From positions 4,699,501 through 4,763,500 of the forward strand of contig NZ_LN997848.1 in assembly GCF_001511835.1 (NCBI RefSeq): a stretch of 64,000 nucleotides of DNA, in the 5' to 3' direction. Below are positions 38,784-47,846 of this stretch, piece after piece. Position 1 is the first letter of the stretch; each line of letters starts with the position of its first letter. The stretch is from Magnetospirillum sp. XM-1 (GTDB lineage: Bacteria; Pseudomonadota; Alphaproteobacteria; Rhodospirillales; Magnetospirillaceae). The position numbers and the translations under genes were made by a program. The notes beneath the pieces are model-generated. The model was not told the DNA's origin. It searched no databases and saw only the letters and a list, made by a program, of their open reading frames with translations.

Positions 38784-40994
38784 ATGCTTGCGATGATCGC
38801 CAACACCCGGATTCTCATCAAGGTGTTCGTCGCCCCGGCCATCCTGATCACATCCATGCTGGTTCTGGGAGTGGTCTTCCACTTCGCCATGGCGCGGCAG
38901 AACGCGGCCATGGACAGCATGGTCAACACCTCGTTCGCCAACAGCCGCGCCGCCGCCGAGCTGGACGGCATGGCGGCCACCATCGAATCCAACCTCTACC
39001 GCATCCTGGGATGGAAGGCGGCCAAGGAGGACAAGGACAAGATCGTCCAGCTGGACAAGCAGCTGAACGCCGACGTCAAGGACTTCAACGAAAAGGCCAA
39101 CGCCCTGCTCAAGGCCATGTCGGCGGATCCGACCATGGCCAAGCGGGTCAAGGACTACGTCCTGGCGGCCGGCGACGTGCTGGGCATGTACGACAGCGAC
39201 CACATCACCGCGCTGTCCATGATGGGCGCCACCGAGATCGAGTATGACGGCCTGCGCGCCGAGTTGCAGGGCCTAAGCGACAAGACCGCCGCCCGCGCCG
39301 CCGAGGACTATCGCGACACCCTGGCGCTGGCCGCCGCCACCGAGATGGATTACGCCCTGGTGCTGGGCATCTTCCTGCTGGTCGGGGCGCTGGCCACCTT
39401 CGCCATGGGCCGCATGATCGCCGGCCCGGTGGCCGAGATCACCCACGTGATGGGCCGGCTGGCCGGCGACGACCTGGACGTGCCCGTCCCCTTCCTCGAC
39501 CGCGGCGACGAGATCGCCGAGATGGCCGCCGCCGTCGAGGTGTTCAAGGCCAACAAGCGCCGCGCCCAAGAACTGGAGCAGGCCCAGCGGGCCGACCAGG
39601 AGGCCAAGGAGCAGCGGCGCATCTCGCTGGAACAGCACGCCGCCCGCTTCGAGGCCAGCGTCACCGGCACCCTGGAGGCGGTGGTCGCCGCCAGCGGCCA
39701 CATGCAAAAGACCGCCGGCGAGATGGCCAACACCTCCGAGACGGTGAAGCATCAGTCCGAAGCGGTGTCCAGCGCCGCCGCCCAGGCCTCGGACAACGTC
39801 AATTCGGTGGCGGCCGGGGCCGAGGAGCTGTCGGCCTCCATCAAGGAGATCGGCCGCCGGGTCAGCCATTCCAGCTCCATGGCGCGCACCGCCGCCCAGG
39901 AATCCGAGGAGGCCAACGACATCGTGCGCGGCCTGGCCGAGGCTGCCGGCCGCATCGGCGAGGTGGTGACCCTGATCAACGACATCGCCGCCCAGACCAA
40001 CCTCCTGGCCTTGAACGCCACCATCGAGGCGGCCCGCGCCGGCGAGGCGGGCAAGGGCTTCGCCGTCGTGGCGGGCGAGGTCAAGACCCTGGCCAGCCAG
40101 ACCGCCAAGGCCACCGACGAGATCGCCAGCCAGATCGCCGTGGTCCAGGCCCGCACCAATTCGGCGGTGGAAGCCATCGCCCATATCAGCGGCACCATCA
40201 CCGAGATCGACGCCATCGCCGCCGAGATCGCCCAGGCGGTGGACCAGCAGGACGCCGCCACCCAGGAAATCGCCCGCAACGTCCAACAGGCCGCCGTCGG
40301 CGCGCTGACCGTCACCGATTCCATCCAGTCGGTGAGCGCCGCCACCTCGTCCAGCGGCCAGATCGCCACCGACGTGCTCGAATCCGCCCGGCAACTGGCG
40401 GCCAAGGCCGATTCGCTCCACCACGAGGTGGATTCCTTCCTGGCCGCCATCAAGGACGAGGAGCAGTACTCCCATTCCGACGATTTGGTCTACGCCGATT
40501 ACGTGCGCGACGGCGCCGCCATGATGGCCCAGCGCCTGGAAGAGGCGGTGCGCAAGGGCGAGATCGAGTACTACCAGCTGTTCGACGAGACCTATCAGCC
40601 CATCTCCGGCACCGCGCCGCAGCAGGTGACCACCCGCTTCACCGAGCTGGCCGACCGCCTGTTCCCCGATATCCAGGAAAAGGCCCTGACCCAGTTCCCC
40701 AAGGCGGTGTTCTGCGTCGGCGTGGACCGCAACGGCTATCTTCCCACCCACAACGCCAAGTTCTCCCAGCCCCAGGGCAAGGACCCGGTGTGGAACGACG
40801 CCAATTGCCGCAACCGCCGCATGTTCACCGACCCCACCGGCCTGGCCGCCGCCCGCAACACCGCCAAGCCGTCGCTGGTCCAGACCTATCGCCGCCAGAT
40901 GGGCGACAAGAGCGTGCTGATGATCGACGTGTCGTCGCCCATCATGATCCGGGGGCGCCACTGGGGAGCCTTGCGCCTGGGCTACGCGGTCTAG
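38784..40994 (+). CDS. Methyl-accepting chemotaxis protein with C-terminal sensor-like domain
   Basis: Chemoreceptor of 736 aa. GGGAGGG lies six bases before ATG 38784; an in-frame ATG 18 codons upstream has no such signal. TM helix about 12-32, a helical periplasmic region to about 190, TM helix about 193-213, HAMP about 214-268, then the signalling hairpin with the tip in [40 protein letters not shown]. After the signalling domain comes an extra domain of about 180 aa (about 555-736) with [31 protein letters not shown] and [13 protein letters not shown], which resembles Cache/PAS-type sensors but lies in the cytoplasm. It may give a second, internal input. An exported protein gene follows after 2 bases. 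Confidence 0.9.
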
Positions 40995-40996
40995 CC

Positions 40997-41473
40997 GTGC
41001 GGCGTCTCGCCCTTTTCGCCGCGATCCTGGCCGGGGGCCTGTCCTCGGCGGCGGCGGCCGGAAGCGAGCTCGCCTGCCGGTCGGGAGAAGAGGCGTTGCT
41101 GACCGCCGATCCCTCCAGCGTCAACGCCCTCGACCTTGCCGCCGCCACGGGGACTCGGCGGCTGGAATTGCGGGAATGGGGAATCTGCTTTTCCTGCGCC
41201 GGCATGCCCGCCTTGCGCCTGACCCTGGCCGACCGGGACAGCGGGGAACAGGCCTGGATTTCCGGCGGCGTCACCGCCTGCGGCCCGGCCGACGCCCCCG
41301 CCGCCCAGCGCCATTGCCTGACCGGCGCGGCCGTTCAACTCGGCAACCGCCAGGCCGGACGCTGCCTCTTTCCCCCGGGCACCACCCTGGCCACCCTGTG
41401 GACGGCCCTGACCGGATCGGCGCCGCCGGATCTCCGGGACGGCTGGTGGAGCTATCGTTCCTCCGCTCAATAG
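40997..41473 (+). CDS. Small exported Cys-containing protein
   Basis: 158 aa, family not recognised. GTG 40997 is two bases after the chemoreceptor stop, and a Sec signal peptide follows directly (RRLALFAAILAGGLSSAAAA-GSE). The mature part has several Cys: LACRSG, ICFSCAG, VTACGP, RHCLTG and GRCLFP, six in total, an even number that could give three disulfides in the periplasm. It is probably co-transcribed with the chemoreceptor and could be a ligand-binding partner, but that is only context. It converges with the OmpA-lipoprotein gene, overlapping by 7 bases. Confidence 0.65.
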   Translation: MRRLALFAAILAGGLSSAAAAGSELACRSGEEALLTADPSSVNALDLAAATGTRRLELREWGICFSCAGMPALRLTLADRDSGEQAWISGGVTACGPADAPAAQRHCLTGAAVQLGNRQAGRCLFPPGTTLATLWTALTGSAPPDLRDGWWSYRSSAQ

Positions 41474-41970
41474 GGCTCGAGCCGGATCACCACCCGCCGG
41501 TTGGCGGCCATGGCCGCCTTGGTGCGGCCGGCATCCTTGGGCCGCTCCTGGCCGAAGGAAATGGCGGTGATGCGGTTTTGGTGAATCCCCCGCTCGATCA
41601 GGTACTGGCGGACCACCTGGGCGCGGCGGTCGCCCACTGCCAGGTTGTATTCCCGGCTGCCCCGCTGGTCGGCGTGGCCCTCCAGGATGACCGGCTGCTC
41701 CGGGTCGCGCTTCAACGTCTCCGCCACCCCGTCCAGGATCGTCCTGGCCTGGGCGTCGAGGTCCAGGCCACCATCCGTGAAATTGACCTCGATCTCGAGC
41801 AGCGAAGTCCGGCGGTCCCGGCGGGCCGGCGGGCCGTAGACGGCCAGCGGCTGCTCGCGCCGGGCCAGGGGCTCGTCCAGCGCCTCGACCGGAGAATCGC
41901 ATCCCGCCCCGGCGGCGGCCAGGGCGGTGGCGGCAAAGCGCAGCAGGAAGTCACGTCGGCTGTCGGTCAT
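41467..41970 (-). CDS. Tat-type OmpA-family lipoprotein
   Basis: 167 aa. The start is TDSRRDFLLRFAATALAAAG: R5-R6 give a twin-arginine motif (SRRDFLL), and C24 in AAGAGC is a lipobox Cys, so export by Tat and lipidation are expected. The C-terminal half is a Pal/OmpA peptidoglycan-binding domain: VILEGHADQRGSREYNLAVGDRRAQVV, INRITAISFGQERP and NRRVVIRLEPY. GGGAGGG lies before ATG 41970. The start overlaps the 3' end of the radical SAM gene by 20 bases, so the two are translationally coupled. The tat export suggests folding or cofactor loading before transport, which is unusual for Pal. Confidence 0.82.
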   Translation of the reverse strand: MTDSRRDFLLRFAATALAAAGAGCDSPVEALDEPLARREQPLAVYGPPARRDRRTSLLEIEVNFTDGGLDLDAQARTILDGVAETLKRDPEQPVILEGHADQRGSREYNLAVGDRRAQVVRQYLIERGIHQNRITAISFGQERPKDAGRTKAAMAANRRVVIRLEPY

Positions 41971-43069
41971 CACACCCTCCCATTTCGCCGATCTTCTCCA
42001 GGCCGCAATGGAGGGCCCGGGAATCCTCGGGGTCGAACAGATGAAAGCCGCCGCCCTCGCACAGGTCCCAGTGGTCGCAGGACCCGCAGGCGGCGGGCGC
42101 CATGTGGCGGCGGCCCCGGCGGAAACGTCCGAACCCGCCTTGCCACAGATCCAGGAACGGGGTCTCGCGGATACTGCCCTCGGAAAAGCGGCGCGACACG
42201 GCGGGACAGCCGGTGACGCCGCCGTCATGCAGGATCGAGGCGATCACCGTGCCCGAACCGCAATAATGCATGCCTTCGCGCACCCGGCATTCCCAGTTGG
42301 GGCCCCAATAGCCTTCCTCGCTCAGCGTGACCGCGATGTCGCTCCGCCGCTGGCGGGCCCCGGCGACAAAGGCCAGCAATTGCCGGTATTGCGGCCCCGA
42401 CAGCATCAGCCCCGATCCCCGCCCCGCCCGCCCGCGCGAGAACACCGGGGTGAAACGCACCTGCGGCACGCCGAGCGCGGCGAGGTGGTCGACGAAGAGC
42501 TCCAGCCGGTCGATGTTCAGCGAACTGACACAGCAGATGACGTCGAAGGCGGTGTAGAAGGGATCGGCCACCAGCCGTTCCAGCGCGCCCGACACCTTGC
42601 GGAAGGCACCCCTGAACTGGCGCAGCGAATCATGGTCCGCTTCCAGCCCGTCCAGGCTGACCGAAATAGTGGAAAGCCCCGCCGCCTTGAGCGAGGCCAG
42701 CCGAGCGGCGTCCAGCAGCATGCCGTTGGTGGTGATCCCCCAGGCGAAGCCGAGATGGGCGGCAAACGCCCCCACCTCCTCGATGTCGCTGCGGATCAGG
42801 GGCTCGCCGCCGATGATGGCGAAGGTGATGGCGTGAGGGTCGAAGGCCCGGGCGATGGCGGCCAGTTCCCGCTTGACGGTTTCGGGCGGCAATTCCCGGT
42901 GGCGGGTGGAATTGTCGCGCAGGCAGTCGCTGCCACAATGGCGGCAGGCGAGATTGCAGCGCAGCGTCGATTCCCAGAACAGGTAGCGCAGCGGATGCTG
43001 GTCGGCCAGCCTGTCCTTGGCGGCGATAAAGCGCTCCAGCGTATCGGCCACGGCGTCCTGGCGATCCAT
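41951..43069 (-). CDS. Radical SAM/SPASM domain protein
   Basis: 372 aa. The SAM-binding cluster Cys are C38, C42 and C45 in RCNLACRHCGSDC, with an additional C49. FAIIGGEPLIR is the GGE motif. After the TIM barrel a SPASM-type tail carries many Cys (ECRVREGMHYCGSG, GGVTGCPA, AACGSCDHWDLCEGGG, ALHCG), enough for one or two auxiliary clusters. SPASM enzymes modify peptides or proteins, or make cofactors such as PQQ and haem d1. Its downstream partner, overlapping by 20 bases, is the Tat lipoprotein, so that protein or a nearby Cys-rich peptide may be its substrate. It is divergent from soeABC. Function not known. Confidence 0.87.
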   Translation of the reverse strand: MDRQDAVADTLERFIAAKDRLADQHPLRYLFWESTLRCNLACRHCGSDCLRDNSTRHRELPPETVKRELAAIARAFDPHAITFAIIGGEPLIRSDIEEVGAFAAHLGFAWGITTNGMLLDAARLASLKAAGLSTISVSLDGLEADHDSLRQFRGAFRKVSGALERLVADPFYTAFDVICCVSSLNIDRLELFVDHLAALGVPQVRFTPVFSRGRAGRGSGLMLSGPQYRQLLAFVAGARQRRSDIAVTLSEEGYWGPNWECRVREGMHYCGSGTVIASILHDGGVTGCPAVSRRFSEGSIRETPFLDLWQGGFGRFRRGRRHMAPAACGSCDHWDLCEGGGFHLFDPEDSRALHCGLEKIGEMGGCDDRQPT

Positions 43070-43166: not shown

Positions 43167-43202
43167 TTGCCTTATTAGAGCGCTCTAAAGTAGAGTGCTC
43201 TA
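43167..43202 (+). promoter_or_regulatory. Tandem palindromes and candidate promoter ahead of soeA
   Basis: Two similar palindromes in tandem: TTAGAGCGCTCTAA at 43175-43188 (perfect) and TAGAGTGCTCTA at 43191-43202 (two central mismatches), with centres 15 bases apart. A possible promoter TTGCCT (43167-43172) and TAGAGT (43191-43196), spacing 18, is overlapped by both, the arrangement expected of a repressor site. They lie 53 bases before the soeA ATG and also in the gap to the divergent radical SAM gene. The regulator is not known. Confidence 0.6.
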
Positions 43203-43254
43203 AAAGCAGCCCCGAAACGAGGGCTAAAATAATGCCAGGGGGGAGCAAGCCGGC

Positions 43255-46149
43255 ATGAGGGATCCCGCATCCATTCCGGATTCCGATCTCGGACGATCGG
43301 AAGTGAAGACCACCACGTGCTACATGTGCGCCTGCCGCTGCGGCATCCGCGTGCACCTGCGCGACGGCGAGGTCCGTTACATCGAGGGCAACCCCGACCA
43401 TCCCTTGAACAAGGGCATCATGTGCGCCAAGGGTGCCTCGGGCATCATGAAGCAGTACTCGCCCGCCCGCCTGACCAAGCCATTGAAGCGCAAGGACGGC
43501 GCCGAGCGGGGCGAAGGCGCCTTCGAGCCCATCAGCTGGGAAGAGGCCTTCTCGACGCTGGCCGAGCGCCTGGGCCATCTGCGGGCCACCGACCCGAAGA
43601 AGTTCGCGCTGTTCACGGGGCGCGACCAGATGCAGGCCCTGACCGGCCTGTTCGCCGCCAAGTTCGGCACTCCCAATTACGCCGCCCATGGCGGCTTCTG
43701 CTCGGTCAACATGGCGGCCGGCATGATCTACACCATCGGCGGCAGCTTCTGGGAATTCGGCGGCCCCGATCTCGAGCGGGCCAAGCTGTTCGTGATGATC
43801 GGCACCGCCGAGGACCACCACTCCAATCCCATGAAGCGCGACCTCGCCGCCTTCAAGCGCGGCGGCGGGCGCTTCATCGCCATCAATCCGGTACGCACCG
43901 GCTATGCCGCCATCGCCGACGAGTGGGTGCCCATCCGCCCCGGCACCGACGGCGCCCTGCTGCTGGCCCTGGTGCGTGAGATCATGGAGCTGGGCCTTTT
44001 CGACCGCGACTTCCTGATCCGCTACACCAACGCCGCCGAACTGGTGAACCAGAACGCCGACAGCGATTCCTTCGGCCTGTTTGTGCGCGAGGGCAGCGTG
44101 CCGGTGCGGCCCGACACCTTCGAGACGCCCGACAAGATGTGGTGGGACCGCGAGTCCAACAAGCCGGTCATCGCCCGCACCAAGGGGACCGAGGGCCGCC
44201 TGTTCGGCTCCTACGCCCTCGACGACGGCACCCCGGTCAAGCCCTCGCTGCAGCTTCTCAAGGAGCGGGTGAAGGACTACACCCCGGAATGGGCCGAGGG
44301 CATCACCGGCATTCCCGCCGCCACCATCCGCCGCCTGGCCCACGAGATGGGCGTCACGGCGCGCGACCAGACCATCGAGCTGCCCATCGCCTGGACCGAT
44401 TGCTGGGGCACCGAGCACGACAAGATCACCGGCAACCCGGTGGCCTTCCACGCCATGCGCGGCCTTGCGGCCCATTCCAACGGCTTTCACACCACCCGCG
44501 CCCTGGCCATCCTGATGACGCTGTTGGGCACCATCGACCGGCCGGGCGGGTTCCGGCACCGCGCCCCCTTCCCGCGTCCCATCCCGCCCTGCCCCAAGCC
44601 GCCCAAGGGCCCGCAGGCGGTCAAGGCCGGCGAGGCGCTGGTGGGCACGCCCTTGGGCTGGCCCGCCGACCCCGACGACCTGTCGGTGGATGCGAACGGC
44701 GAGCCCATCCGCCTGGACAAGGGCTTTTCCTGGGAATACCCGCTGTCCGTCCACGGCATGATGCACAACGCCATCACCAATGCCTGGAAGGGCGATCCCT
44801 ACCCCATCGACACGCTGCTGCTGTTCATGGCCAACATGGCCTGGAACTCCACCATGAACACGTCCGGGGTGAGGGAGATGCTCACCGACAAGGACGAACA
44901 GGGGAACTACAAGATCCCCTTCCTGGTGGTGTGCGACGCCTTCCAGTCCGAGACGGTGGCCTTCGCCGATCTGGTGCTGCCCGACACCACCTATCTCGAA
45001 CGCCACGACGTGATGAGCATCCTGGACCGGCCCATCTCGGAATTCGACGGCCCCGTCGATTCGGTGCGCGTGCCGATTCTGCCGCCCATGGGGGACAGCA
45101 AGCCGTTCCAGGAAGTGATCATCGAGTTGGCGACGCGCCTCAAGCTGCCGGCCTTCACCAACAAGGACGGAAGCCGCAAGTTCCGCGACTATCCCGACTT
45201 CATCGTCAATTTCGAGACCGAACCGGGGTCCGGCATCGGCTTTCTGTCGGGCTGGCGCGGAAGAGCGGGCGAGAAGTTCCTGGTGGGCGAACCCAATCCC
45301 AACCAGTGGGACCAGTACGCGCGCAACAACAACCACTTCCATTACGAACTGCCGCCCAGCTTCCAATACATGCGCAACTGGAACAAGGGCTACCTGGACT
45401 GGGCCTACCGCCACCGTCTGGTGCGCTTTACCGACCCGATCATGCCGCACCTCTATTCCGAGGTGCTGCAGAAGTTCCGCCTCGCCGCCGAGGGCAAGTG
45501 GAAGGGCAAGCAGCCCCCCGACCGCCTGCGCGACCGGGTGAAGACCTTCTTCGATCCCCTGCCCTTCTACTACACGCCCCTGGAATGGCGGTGCTCGGAC
45601 GGGCATTCCTTCCCGCTGTCGGCGCTGACCCAGCGGCCCATGGCCATGTACCATTCCTGGGATTCCCAGAACGCCTGGCTGCGCCAGATCCACACCAGCA
45701 ACGTCTTGTTCATGCACCCCAAGGTGGGCGCGCTGGGCAATTTCGGCGATGCCGACTGGGTGTGGGTGGAAAGCCCGTGGGGCAAGATCAAGTGCCAGGC
45801 CCGCTTCACCGAGGCGGTGGAACCGGGCACGGTGTGGACCTGGAACGCCATCGGCAAGGCCTCGGGCGCCTGGGGACTTGACCCCGACGCCGACGAGTCG
45901 AAAAAGGGCTTCCTGCTCAATCACCTGATTTCCGAGGAGCTGCCCCGCATGGTGGGCGACAGCCACGTCTCCAATTCCGATCCGGTCACCGGTCAGGCGG
46001 CGTGGTACGACCTCAAGGTCCGCGTCACCAAGTGCAAGCCGGGCGAGGAAGGGGAAAGCTGGCCCCAGTTCAAGCCCATGCGACCGCTGCCCGGCCAGAC
46101 CATCGACTTCAAGTCGAAGGTCCGCGCCTTCCTGGCCGGGAGGAAGTGA
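43255..46149 (+). CDS. soeA: Sulfite dehydrogenase (quinone) molybdopterin subunit SoeA
   Basis: Complex iron-sulfur molybdoenzyme of 964 aa. With SoeB and SoeC it oxidises sulfite to sulfate in the cytoplasm and passes electrons to quinone. There is no Tat signal, as in known SoeA. The N-terminal 4Fe-4S cluster uses Cys among C22, C25, C27 or C29 and C57 (TTTCYMCACRCG, IMCAKG). The Mo ligand is probably C149 in HGGFCSVNMAAGM. Other cofactor segments: VMIGTAEDHHSNP, INPVRTGYAAIADEWVPIRPGTDGALLLA, and the tail SPWGKIKCQARFTEAV. Length and motifs match the SoeA group; a DmsA- or PsrA-like role is less likely since those are exported. A GGGGGGAG precedes the ATG. The three genes are close-spaced. 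Confidence 0.9.
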   Translation: MRDPASIPDSDLGRSEVKTTTCYMCACRCGIRVHLRDGEVRYIEGNPDHPLNKGIMCAKGASGIMKQYSPARLTKPLKRKDGAERGEGAFEPISWEEAFSTLAERLGHLRATDPKKFALFTGRDQMQALTGLFAAKFGTPNYAAHGGFCSVNMAAGMIYTIGGSFWEFGGPDLERAKLFVMIGTAEDHHSNPMKRDLAAFKRGGGRFIAINPVRTGYAAIADEWVPIRPGTDGALLLALVREIMELGLFDRDFLIRYTNAAELVNQNADSDSFGLFVREGSVPVRPDTFETPDKMWWDRESNKPVIARTKGTEGRLFGSYALDDGTPVKPSLQLLKERVKDYTPEWAEGITGIPAATIRRLAHEMGVTARDQTIELPIAWTDCWGTEHDKITGNPVAFHAMRGLAAHSNGFHTTRALAILMTLLGTIDRPGGFRHRAPFPRPIPPCPKPPKGPQAVKAGEALVGTPLGWPADPDDLSVDANGEPIRLDKGFSWEYPLSVHGMMHNAITNAWKGDPYPIDTLLLFMANMAWNSTMNTSGVREMLTDKDEQGNYKIPFLVVCDAFQSETVAFADLVLPDTTYLERHDVMSILDRPISEFDGPVDSVRVPILPPMGDSKPFQEVIIELATRLKLPAFTNKDGSRKFRDYPDFIVNFETEPGSGIGFLSGWRGRAGEKFLVGEPNPNQWDQYARNNNHFHYELPPSFQYMRNWNKGYLDWAYRHRLVRFTDPIMPHLYSEVLQKFRLAAEGKWKGKQPPDRLRDRVKTFFDPLPFYYTPLEWRCSDGHSFPLSALTQRPMAMYHSWDSQNAWLRQIHTSNVLFMHPKVGALGNFGDADWVWVESPWGKIKCQARFTEAVEPGTVWTWNAIGKASGAWGLDPDADESKKGFLLNHLISEELPRMVGDSHVSNSDPVTGQAAWYDLKVRVTKCKPGEEGESWPQFKPMRPLPGQTIDFKSKVRAFLAGRK

Positions 46150-46150
46150 C

Positions 46151-46888
46151 ATGAGCAAGAAGCAACTCGCCCTGGTCATCGACCTCAACGTCTGCGTCGG
46201 CTGCCATGCCTGCGTGACGTCGTGCAAGGAATGGAACACCTCGGGCTGGGCTGGTCCGCTGACCGACCAGAACCCCTACGGCGCCGATCCGACGGGGGTG
46301 TTCTTCAACCGCGTCCAGACCTATGAATGCGGCACCTTCCCCAATACCGAGACCATCCACTTCCCCAAATCCTGCCTCCATTGCGAGGAGCCGCCCTGCG
46401 TGCCGGTCTGCCCCACCGGGGCGTCCTATAAGCGCGAAGAGGACGGCATCGTCCTGGTGGATTACGACAAGTGCATCGGCTGCAAGTACTGCTCGTGGTC
46501 GTGCCCCTACGGCGCGCGTGAGTTCGACCCCGTCCAGGGCGTCATGAAGAAGTGCACGCTGTGCGTCGACCGCATCTACGACCAGACCATCGAGGAGGCG
46601 CGCAGAAAGCCCGCCTGCGTTCTGGCCTGCCCGGCGGGTGCCCGCATCTTCGGCGACGTCAACGACCCCAATTCCGAGGCGGCCCAGGCCATCCGCGACA
46701 ATGGCGGCTTCCAGCTGATGCCGGAATGGGGCACCCGGCCTGCCAACCACTACCTGCCCCGGCGCAAGACCACCACCACCCTTCATCCGGATGAACTGGT
46801 GCGCGTCGACAACCCGCTGAAGGCCGAGGGCGAGAAGCCCCGTCCCGCCTTCACCACGCCCACCATCGACGGCGTTTCCAGCTGGTAA
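46151..46888 (+). CDS. soeB: Sulfite dehydrogenase iron-sulfur subunit SoeB
   Basis: 245 aa, four-cluster ferredoxin subunit that carries electrons from the molybdenum site to the membrane. Four Cys groups are seen: VCVGCHACVTSCKEW, SCLHCEEPPCVPVCPTGAS, KCIGCKYCSWSCPYGA and KCTLCVDRI with ACVLACPAGARIF. There is no signal peptide. It starts two bases after the soeA stop. C-terminal about 50 residues are not part of the cluster domain. It resembles DmsB/PsrB/SoeB; the SoeA and SoeC context decides the call. Confidence 0.92.
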   Translation: MSKKQLALVIDLNVCVGCHACVTSCKEWNTSGWAGPLTDQNPYGADPTGVFFNRVQTYECGTFPNTETIHFPKSCLHCEEPPCVPVCPTGASYKREEDGIVLVDYDKCIGCKYCSWSCPYGAREFDPVQGVMKKCTLCVDRIYDQTIEEARRKPACVLACPAGARIFGDVNDPNSEAAQAIRDNGGFQLMPEWGTRPANHYLPRRKTTTTLHPDELVRVDNPLKAEGEKPRPAFTTPTIDGVSSW

Positions 46889-46904
46889 GGGGGAGGAGCA
46901 CATC

Positions 46905-47846
46905 ATGAAGCCCGCATTCTCAGTGATCTTCCTCACCACCCTGATCGGCGCGGCCCAAGGCCTGCTGATCGCGCTGACCATCGGACAGATCTATGCCGGG
47001 GGCGAAAGCGGCGGTTTCTACGCCCTGGGCGGCGCCGTGGCGCTGGCGCTGCTGTGCCTGGGACTGGTGGCCTCGGTGTTCCATCTGGCCAATCCCCAGC
47101 GGGGCTGGCGGGCGGCGACGCGCTGGCGCACCTCGTGGCTGTCCCGGGAAGTGATCCTCATCCCCGTTGTCGCGGGGCTGGCTTTCCTCTACGCCGTGGT
47201 CAACGCCTTCGGCTGGGCGCCGGTGCTGGCCCGGCTGGGCAATGGCGCGGCCCTGGACCTGCCCCTGGTGCTGGGGCTGCTCGCCACCCTGGCCTCGCTG
47301 GCCCTGTTCGTCTGCACCGGCATGATCTATGCCTGCGTGCGCTTCATCCGCCAGTGGGCCTCAGGCTGGACTGTGGTCAACTACCTGCTGATGGGCCTGG
47401 CCTCGGGCTTCACCCTGGCCGCCGCCTACGCCCAGCTCGGCGGCAATGCGCTGGCCGGCTTCATGGGGGCGTCCGCCCTGTGGCTGACCCTGCTGGCCCT
47501 GGCGGCGCGGGCCTTCCAGCTGTGGCTGAACGCCACGGCCGAGCCGCTTTCCACCATGAAAAGCGCCATCGGCATCCATCACTCCCAGATCCGTCAGGTG
47601 ACCCAGGGCTTCATGGGCAGCTCGTTCAACACCATCGAGTTCGCCGCCCCCGGCGGGGCCGAGACGGTGAAGGGCGTGTCCGTATTCTTCCTGGCCGCCG
47701 CCTTCGTGGTGCCGGCGGCGCTGCTGCTGGCGGGCCAGCCGGTGCTGGCCTTCCTCTGCCAGTATGTGGGCCTGCTGGCCGAACGCTGGGCGTTCTTCGC
47801 GGCCGGAACCCACGTCCAAAGCCTGTACTACCAGGCCAAGGGCTGA
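46905..47846 (+). CDS. soeC: Sulfite dehydrogenase membrane anchor SoeC
   Basis: 313 aa, integral membrane protein of the DmsC type with about eight hydrophobic helices (for example VIFLTTLIGAAQGLLIALTI near the N-terminus and LALLCLGLVASVFHLANPQ). It anchors SoeAB and gives electrons to the quinone pool. The segment FHLANPQRGWRAATRWRTSWLSREVI is the conserved loop of DmsC-like anchors. A GGGGGAGGAG lies before the ATG. It ends the soeABC operon, before a bidirectional terminator. Confidence 0.92.
   Translation: MKPAFSVIFLTTLIGAAQGLLIALTIGQIYAGGESGGFYALGGAVALALLCLGLVASVFHLANPQRGWRAATRWRTSWLSREVILIPVVAGLAFLYAVVNAFGWAPVLARLGNGAALDLPLVLGLLATLASLALFVCTGMIYACVRFIRQWASGWTVVNYLLMGLASGFTLAAAYAQLGGNALAGFMGASALWLTLLALAARAFQLWLNATAEPLSTMKSAIGIHHSQIRQVTQGFMGSSFNTIEFAAPGGAETVKGVSVFFLAAAFVVPAALLLAGQPVLAFLCQYVGLLAERWAFFAAGTHVQSLYYQAKG

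Follow-up and report, generated by a model that had tools for sequence, protein, structure and literature searches.

What does a radical SAM enzyme act on when its gene overlaps that of a lipoprotein bearing a twin-arginine translocation (Tat) signal? The question is raised by two genes in a stretch of 64,000 nucleotides from Magnetospirillum sp. XM-1 (contig NZ_LN997848.1, positions 4,699,501 to 4,763,500; hereafter the window), which encode a radical S-adenosylmethionine (SAM)/SPASM enzyme and an OmpA-type lipoprotein (Table 1). An initial annotation had raised the possibility that they form an undescribed system in which the enzyme modifies either the lipoprotein or a neighbouring exported protein with six cysteines. 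The key feature, V44-Y45-G46-P47-P48 in the lipoprotein, went unmentioned there. Taking the evidence as a whole, we consider most likely an enzyme-partner unit in which the Tyr-Gly (YG) of the partner is edited before export.

The enzyme and its Tat-exported partner

With 61.8 bits for PF04055 and 26.7 bits for PF13186, both above the Pfam cut-offs, the enzyme belongs to the radical SAM/SPASM proteins. Besides C38, C42 and C45 it contains cysteines at positions 261, 270, 288, 328, 331, 337, 355 and 366, and those at 270, 288, 328, 331, 337 and 355 are unchanging across 19 aligned homologues. The lipoprotein gene begins with an ATG at 41970, its stop codon ends at 41467, and it overlaps the enzyme gene by 20 nt (41951-41970). 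Genes, cluster and tail cysteines and overlap had all been placed correctly by the initial annotation. The twin-arginine motif (SRRDFLL) and the lipobox (AGAGC) with Cys24 that it had noted can likewise be read by eye from the N-terminus of the lipoprotein, MTDSRRDFLLRFAATALAAAGAGC.

In an AlphaFold2 model of the lipoprotein, the OmpA domain is confidently folded and lies C-terminal to a linker with low predicted local distance difference test (pLDDT) values (below 50 for residues 21-41 and 52-54; mean of 55 for residues 41-50). The motif in the window reads YGPPA, that is, YGxP and not YGxPP. An alignment of 15 OmpA partners showed R5, R6, F8, L9, R11, F12, Y45, G46 and P48 to be invariant, while the linker around YGxP varies in length and sequence. 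The lipobox cysteine is not universal, as it occupies its column in 10 of the 15 and is displaced in three more.

Table 1 Features of the locus, in positions of the window.
Feature	Positions	Strand	Basis
Radical SAM/SPASM enzyme of 372 aa, probably a maturase of the splicease type	41951-43069	-	PF04055, PF13186, TIGR04133, trees
CX3CX2C radical SAM cluster motif at residues 38-45, then G46-S47	42935-42958	-	sequence
SPASM domain, residues 270-332, auxiliary Fe-S cluster Cys	42074-42262	-	PF13186
OmpA-type lipoprotein of 167 aa, exported by Tat, candidate substrate	41467-41970	-	PF00691; TIGR02802 (Pal) below cut-off
Leader RRDFLLRF, residues 5-12, twin-Arg, possibly also recognized by the enzyme	41935-41958	-	invariant residues, DNA pattern
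Lipobox AGAGC, predicted lipidated Cys24	41899-41913	-	sequence
V44-Y45-G46-P47-P48 in the linker, candidate site of modification	41827-41841	-	conservation in partners
OmpA domain, peptidoglycan-binding type, residues 58-164	41479-41799	-	PF00691 at 64-158; AlphaFold2 model
Six-Cys exported protein, 158 aa, GTG start, judged to be outside the unit	40997-41473	+	

The enzyme is patchily distributed. The genome itself holds a single close copy, and seven further radical SAM loci are weak matches. Among 55 genomes of the family, nine were enzyme-positive and 46 enzyme-negative; close relatives bearing the enzyme include Magnetospirillum and Phaeospirillum records. A class-wide search found it in one of 385 sampled genomes, which is the window itself. 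Relatives were gathered from genome contigs, from named plasmid records and, in the order of genome G443 (G-, L- and C-numbers are our labels for genomes, loci and contigs), with the TIGR04133 model, which matched 25 of 238 genomes there. Matches were also found in 3 of 344 genomes in the phylum of G437; in the order of G438 (1 of 149) and the class of G439 (1 of 52), only the already known centre genomes matched. Phage records gave no match, and none of the matches in searches of solved structures is named as a splicease.

In all nine enzyme-positive family genomes, the enzyme adjoins a protein that combines (V/I/L)YGxP with a Tat-like leader; conserved co-occurrence was what the initial annotation had suggested looking for. 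Because this adjacency is kept in every family genome where the enzyme was found, the pairing is real beyond chance, of which we are nearly certain. The partner has an OmpA domain in eight of the nine; that of G010 (L015) is a protein of 94 aa without this domain, whose leader reads NRDFLLRFA, not RRDFLLRFA. In G046 the enzyme gene is split across two contigs, with the partner on the second. G038 encodes five motif-bearing Tat OmpA proteins, spread over four contigs, and G003, G010 and G022 encode two each.

A DNA pattern for the leader (RRDFLLRFA), built without using the OmpA domain or the YG motif, occurred in eight of the nine enzyme-positive genomes (all except G003) and in none of the 46 enzyme-negative ones (Fisher p 7e-9, uncorrected for kinship); reversed patterns, used as control, gave none. 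A recount then covered the OmpA proteins of the loci retrieved, 52 of them unique among 103 match rows. Within enzyme-positive genomes, YGxP was present in 16 of 17 proteins with a clear Tat motif (15 of them YGxPP) and in none of 13 without; in enzyme-negative genomes it was present in 1 of 22 (G037). The enzyme-negative genomes G048 and G049 have Tat motifs and lack YGxP. In G040, where no enzyme was detected, an OmpA homologue with 52% identity lies beside the same chemoreceptor and reads SGPPP where others have YGPPP, so that the Tyr is gone.

A Tyr-Gly motif across unrelated partners

The initial annotation took enzyme homologues without the lipoprotein as an outcome that would speak against the pair. 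Taken literally, such homologues exist; most of them, however, have another YG-bearing neighbour. Motifs were counted at 48 non-redundant enzyme loci, leaving out same-place duplicates (such as L018-L020, L027 and L034-L043), the 5' fragment of the gene that is split in G046 (L016, L023), a truncated enzyme from Deltaproteobacteria (L030/L042/L083) and enzymes outside the clade (L049-L051, L128-L136). Strict YGxP occurred alongside the enzyme at 34 of the 48 loci and on the opposite strand of the same stretches at none (0/48), and a looser pattern, Y(G/A) and a Pro no more than three residues away, at 41 and 2, respectively. As background, 3 of 100 tiles of the window had a strict and 19 a loose match, as did 8 and 29 of 142 tiles of eight low-GC loci, which include the enzyme surroundings. 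It is thus the strict count, not the loose one, that carries the weight.

The partners themselves differ widely. Those of Rhodopila have a KRDFLLRWA leader and read PLYGV twice and VEYGP, and that of Campylobacteraceae is an upstream Tat lipoprotein of 73 aa with MAVYGPPP. In Bacteroidota and Treponema, the partners are TIGR04134 lipoproteins reading CEYGSP, CEYGTP and CYGMP, which are carboxypeptidase-regulatory-like (above the Pfam cut-off in L047 only); the CEYGSP of L047 lies outside the counted stretch and the loose match at this locus is probably due to chance. In Clostridia they are small membrane proteins, one example reading QPAVYGPPP; L096 has two lipoproteins, 42 and 51 aa long, with little besides a lipobox and VYGPPP. 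The partner in L045 is zinc-ribbon-like, below cut-offs, and reads TIYGPAP. Judged from these sequences, the conserved element is a short xYG motif, mostly YGxP, that recurs across unrelated partner folds, and not the OmpA lipoprotein. By eye, and without a systematic count, it lies near a lipid or membrane anchor in L022, L024, L046-L048 and L096.

Two further proteins were observed near enzymes of the clade. A WXG100-like protein (L032:7112-7786; below the Pfam cut-off) carries three KYGV motifs beside a TIGR04133-like enzyme and is possibly a modified type VII secretion substrate. A conserved protein of 375-383 aa, probably exported (CTELLWVESAKPEDAPRLSLSNCDVTAHFEG...), is encoded near the enzyme in two genomes (L018:8131-9258, L019:4423-5574).

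One locus outside the strict set, L103, is recoded. It lies on contig C26 of G1109 (L103, L147, L148), which is coding only if TGA is read as sense (density 0.14 versus 0.92). In the enzyme of this contig, 8 of 14 TGA codons fall at aligned positions where each of the six relatives compared has Gly, and Pfam matches were stronger with TGA as Gly than with TGA as Trp for six of six proteins. Four tandem partners beside the enzyme read FYGVY, MYGVP, KYGVL and LYGVK, and in all four the motif glycine is encoded by TGA. That the motif shows up only when the correct code is applied supports selection for YG at the protein level. The contig (28.8 kb, 28 kb of which were read; about 25% GC) fits code 25; since six other contigs sampled from the G1109 assembly fit the standard code, C26 was probably mis-binned from a code-25 bacterium.

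Candidate chemistry and its alternatives

On these sequence grounds, YG is very probably the modification site. As for the chemistry, the excision of tyramine is our preferred candidate, held with some reserve and by analogy with the spliceases. The best NCBIfam model for the enzyme is TIGR04133 (rSAM_w_lipo), with 292.6 bits and thus below the cut-off of 425, after which many SPASM families score about 100 bits; among them is TIGR04103, which we take to be equivalent to IPR026482, at 96 bits against a cut-off of 725. Such hidden Markov model (HMM) scores do not discriminate splicease kinship and were therefore rejected as its sole proof, and trees were built instead. A first tree, of 30 radical SAM proteins, had a branch supported at 99/97 with the window clade, TIGR04133 and TIGR04103/GDL on one side and PqqE, MftC, NirJ, TIGR04053, TIGR04347 and one unnamed enzyme on the other (seven outgroup rows). 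A tree of 42 rows, in which AhbD-like and own-genome rows brought those outside this group to 19, gave the same grouping at 91/79, and the window enzyme was sister to the TIGR04133 rows in both. A glycine following CX3CX2C, Gly46, is present in 23 of 23 ingroup rows and in none of the seven rows of the first outgroup. By sequence, the enzyme thus groups with TIGR04103 with moderate support.

Taken as IPR026482, enzymes of the TIGR04103 type are of the PlpX subclass as given in PMC11002830. PlpX works together with PlpY. Sections of PMC10533398 describe that PlpXY excises tyramine at XYG, with MYG and LYG as natural sites. The lipoprotein has such an XYG site, V44-Y45-G46, whose Y and G are invariant in the 15 OmpA partners. 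A Nostoc plasmid (L049) encodes a TIGR04103 enzyme (853 bits, above the cut-off of 725) with a Nif11 precursor alongside that ends AIAGGRGSIALYGLPPELF (IALYGLPPELF) and a 71-aa gene placed like PlpY.

In the mechanism that we propose, the stand-alone maturase would bind the leader or motif of its partner in the cytosol and edit Tyr45-Gly46 in the linker between lipid anchor and OmpA domain. Tyr45 would most likely be excised as tyramine (-135.08 Da), and Val44 would become an alpha-keto-beta residue joined to Gly46. The Tat route would then export the pre-modified, possibly folded protein, of which the lipid would anchor one end while the OmpA domain holds peptidoglycan, leaving the ketoamide in the flexible linker. 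There, it might act as a membrane-tethered electrophile, perhaps as a protease trap or a covalent attachment point. A surface-tethered electrophile is suggested by the position of the motif near a lipid or membrane anchor in several relatives. Spliceotide products are reported as protease inhibitors in excerpts of PMC11117315 and PMC10373908.

Several points weigh against this reading, for which the evidence on YG chemistry is at the sequence level throughout. Branch support dropped from 99/97 to 91/79, below the starred level of the tool, with more rows; the 96 bits for TIGR04103 are not above those for mycofactocin/heme-type families (102 and 102); and the own-genome paralogue L003 has Gly46 too. 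Pfam and NCBIfam scans of eight window proteins gave no PlpY-, RRE- or PqqD-like match, although a PlpY-type partner could be missed, as the PlpY-like 71-aa protein of Nostoc matched no family either. Sequence context also matters: of the tags placed in FtsZ according to parts of PMC10533398, two insertions were modified, both PIRPGYGLPI, whereas others including PIRPLYGLPI stayed unmodified. No strict YGxP was found at 14 of the 48 loci, most of which have a weaker xYG. In L021, L028 and L045 its Pro comes at least one position further on, and in L032, L085, L097, L098, L104 and L105 Pro is later or absent; the recoded L103 and L047 also belong to the 14, L031 and L087 have YA instead of YG, L089 has no motif at all, and the strict match of L107, one of the 34, is probably chance. 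The truncated Deltaproteobacteria enzyme L030 has no YG nearby. Within the family, G037 encodes CVYGPPPP behind a degenerate twin-Arg with no enzyme detected, and one Tat OmpA protein of G038 lacks YG.

Among the alternatives, a different chemistry at the same Tyr-Gly site, for instance a carbon crosslink joining Val-Tyr or Tyr-Pro, oxidation of Tyr or a mycofactocin-like decarboxylative reaction, survives best, even if we regard it as rather unlikely. The mycofactocin maturase, which according to a passage of PMC8326336 acts on Val-Tyr, outscores TIGR04103 with 102 bits, and excision alone has no obvious need for the fixed Pro two residues past Gly in the OmpA partners. The same Pro, however, is found in the splice tags listed in part of PMC10533398 (YGLPI) and in the Nostoc precursor (YGLPP). 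In the trees, moreover, the enzyme clade stands apart from MftC and is grouped with TIGR04103. The Val-Tyr of MftC is a C-terminal site, and MftC has MftB as helper; here, YG is internal and its Gly is kept by all 15 OmpA partners, the pattern of XYG splice sites. That YGPP instead serves as a docking motif for the enzyme, with the modified residue elsewhere in the partner, is improbable. Docking motifs, too, can be short and rich in proline, but YGPP is by eye the only feature common to the unrelated partner folds, and the L096 lipoproteins of 42-51 aa leave almost nothing else to modify.

The six-Cys protein, the other substrate suggested by the initial annotation and conceivably a target of, for example, thioether formation, is, as had been stated, an exported, Cys-rich neighbour, encoded convergently after a chemoreceptor gene; the latter ends at 40994. 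Its cysteines are at positions 27, 64, 67, 95, 107 and 123, its gene overlaps the end of the lipoprotein gene by 7 nt, and it has no Pfam or NCBIfam match. We rejected it as substrate because it has no YG and, among loci L009-L032, lies beside the enzyme of L009 only. Its gene is convergent and outside the operon, and thioether maturase models score about 56 bits (PapB, StsB), in an analysis whose trees held no thioether enzymes. Modification of this protein by the enzyme is thus highly improbable, and it is probably uninvolved; of the two substrates first suggested, the lipoprotein is the one most likely modified before export. Equally remote is a chance neighbourhood in which the lipoprotein is merely a diverged Pal that carries a Tat signal. 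In its favour, OmpA lipoproteins are widespread (a match in 54 of 55 family genomes); adjacency in nine of nine genomes, a leader pattern restricted to enzyme-positive genomes and scattered YG paralogues there speak against it.

Other genes around the pair were also considered. Three genes at 43255-47846 encode a molybdopterin oxidoreductase without visible Tat signal, a 4Fe-4S protein and a DmsC-type anchor, an operon that we take to resemble the cytoplasmic sulfite dehydrogenase SoeABC. A functional link to it was rejected, as among loci L009-L032 the oxidoreductase was seen in L009 only, and so was one to the chemoreceptor, which was seen only in same-genus loci. Between this operon and the divergently oriented radical SAM gene, two near-identical palindromes, TAGAGCGCTCTA and TAGAGTGCTCTA, start 15 nt apart (43175-43204) and form a possible operator. 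No consistently shared third gene was seen with our crude gene calls, which are often in the wrong frame in GC-rich DNA.

Relation to known systems

The lipoprotein shares with Pal (TIGR02802) a lipid anchor and an OmpA domain of Pal-like sequence, but differs by its score of 104.7 bits (cut-off 125.35), its Tat-type signal and YGxP. MftC of the mycofactocin system (TIGR03962) is likewise a SPASM enzyme, described in part of PMC8326336 as acting on Val-Tyr, yet it belongs to a separate clade.

Closer to the window enzyme are the enzymes of the GDL/DUF1843 system (TIGR03913), which group with TIGR04103. Of the three peptides encoded close to the enzyme of Azospirillum, two contain YG (KPYGVAI, MLYGGAM). 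Unlike the lipoprotein, those of the GDL system are small peptides with no visible export signal, and several have Y without G. DUF1843/GDL peptides encoded next to TIGR03913-type enzymes at L130:1537-2237 and L051:3144-3857 have Tyr-Gly near their N-termini in three of the six read (KPYGVAI, MLYGGAM, QPYGAGI). As their enzymes group with TIGR04103, the GDL system may be splicease-like. Two other loci were observed alongside. A Tropicibacter plasmid radical SAM enzyme (L135:2192-3814) scores 431 bits for TIGR03913 and 428 for TIGR04103, both below cut-off, and is followed by two peptidase genes, a possible splicease-like cluster. Upstream of the radical SAM gene of Agathobacter, which groups with TIGR04103, an unannotated open reading frame of 68 aa contains VMYGTG (L050:3746-3952); it may encode a precursor or be due to chance.

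The PlpX-type spliceases (TIGR04103) resemble the window enzyme as SPASM radical SAM proteins with Gly after CX3CX2C, by their grouping in the trees, and by the YGxPP-type site beside the enzyme of Nostoc L049. In contrast to their precursors, the substrate proposed here is a whole exported envelope protein without a Nif11/nitrile-hydratase leader, its splicing is predicted only, and no PlpY-like gene was recognised at the locus. Broad occurrence of splicing has been reported by Scott et al. 2022 (Chem 8:2659), according to a summary in PMC10373908, and that work may already include part of the clade. If the proposed mechanism is true, splicing would extend from precursors of ribosomally synthesized and post-translationally modified peptides (RiPPs) to entire envelope proteins, among them a lipoprotein that binds peptidoglycan, and some bacteria would put an electrophilic ketoamide into surface proteins.

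The closest counterpart is the TIGR04133/TIGR04134 pair of Bacteroidota and Treponema, in which the best-matching family of the enzyme adjoins an exported lipoprotein, and whose partners in L046-L048 have YGxP near the lipidated Cys (CYGMP, CEYGSP, CEYGTP). It differs in that the window enzyme scores below the TIGR04133 cut-off (292.6 versus 425) and that its partner is a Tat/OmpA protein; a search of the own genome with the TIGR04134 model gave no match, the adjacent lipoprotein being of the OmpA type instead. Literature searches on TIGR04133/TIGR04134 or rSAM-associated lipoproteins found no described function, and those combining keto-beta-amino with lipoprotein found nothing. Contrary to what the initial annotation had considered, the system is not wholly undescribed, since NCBIfam names the pair and XYG spliceases are published; for the pair itself, we found no chemistry described. 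Our analysis would give this named radical SAM/lipoprotein pair a specific candidate site and a likely chemistry, linked to that of the spliceases.

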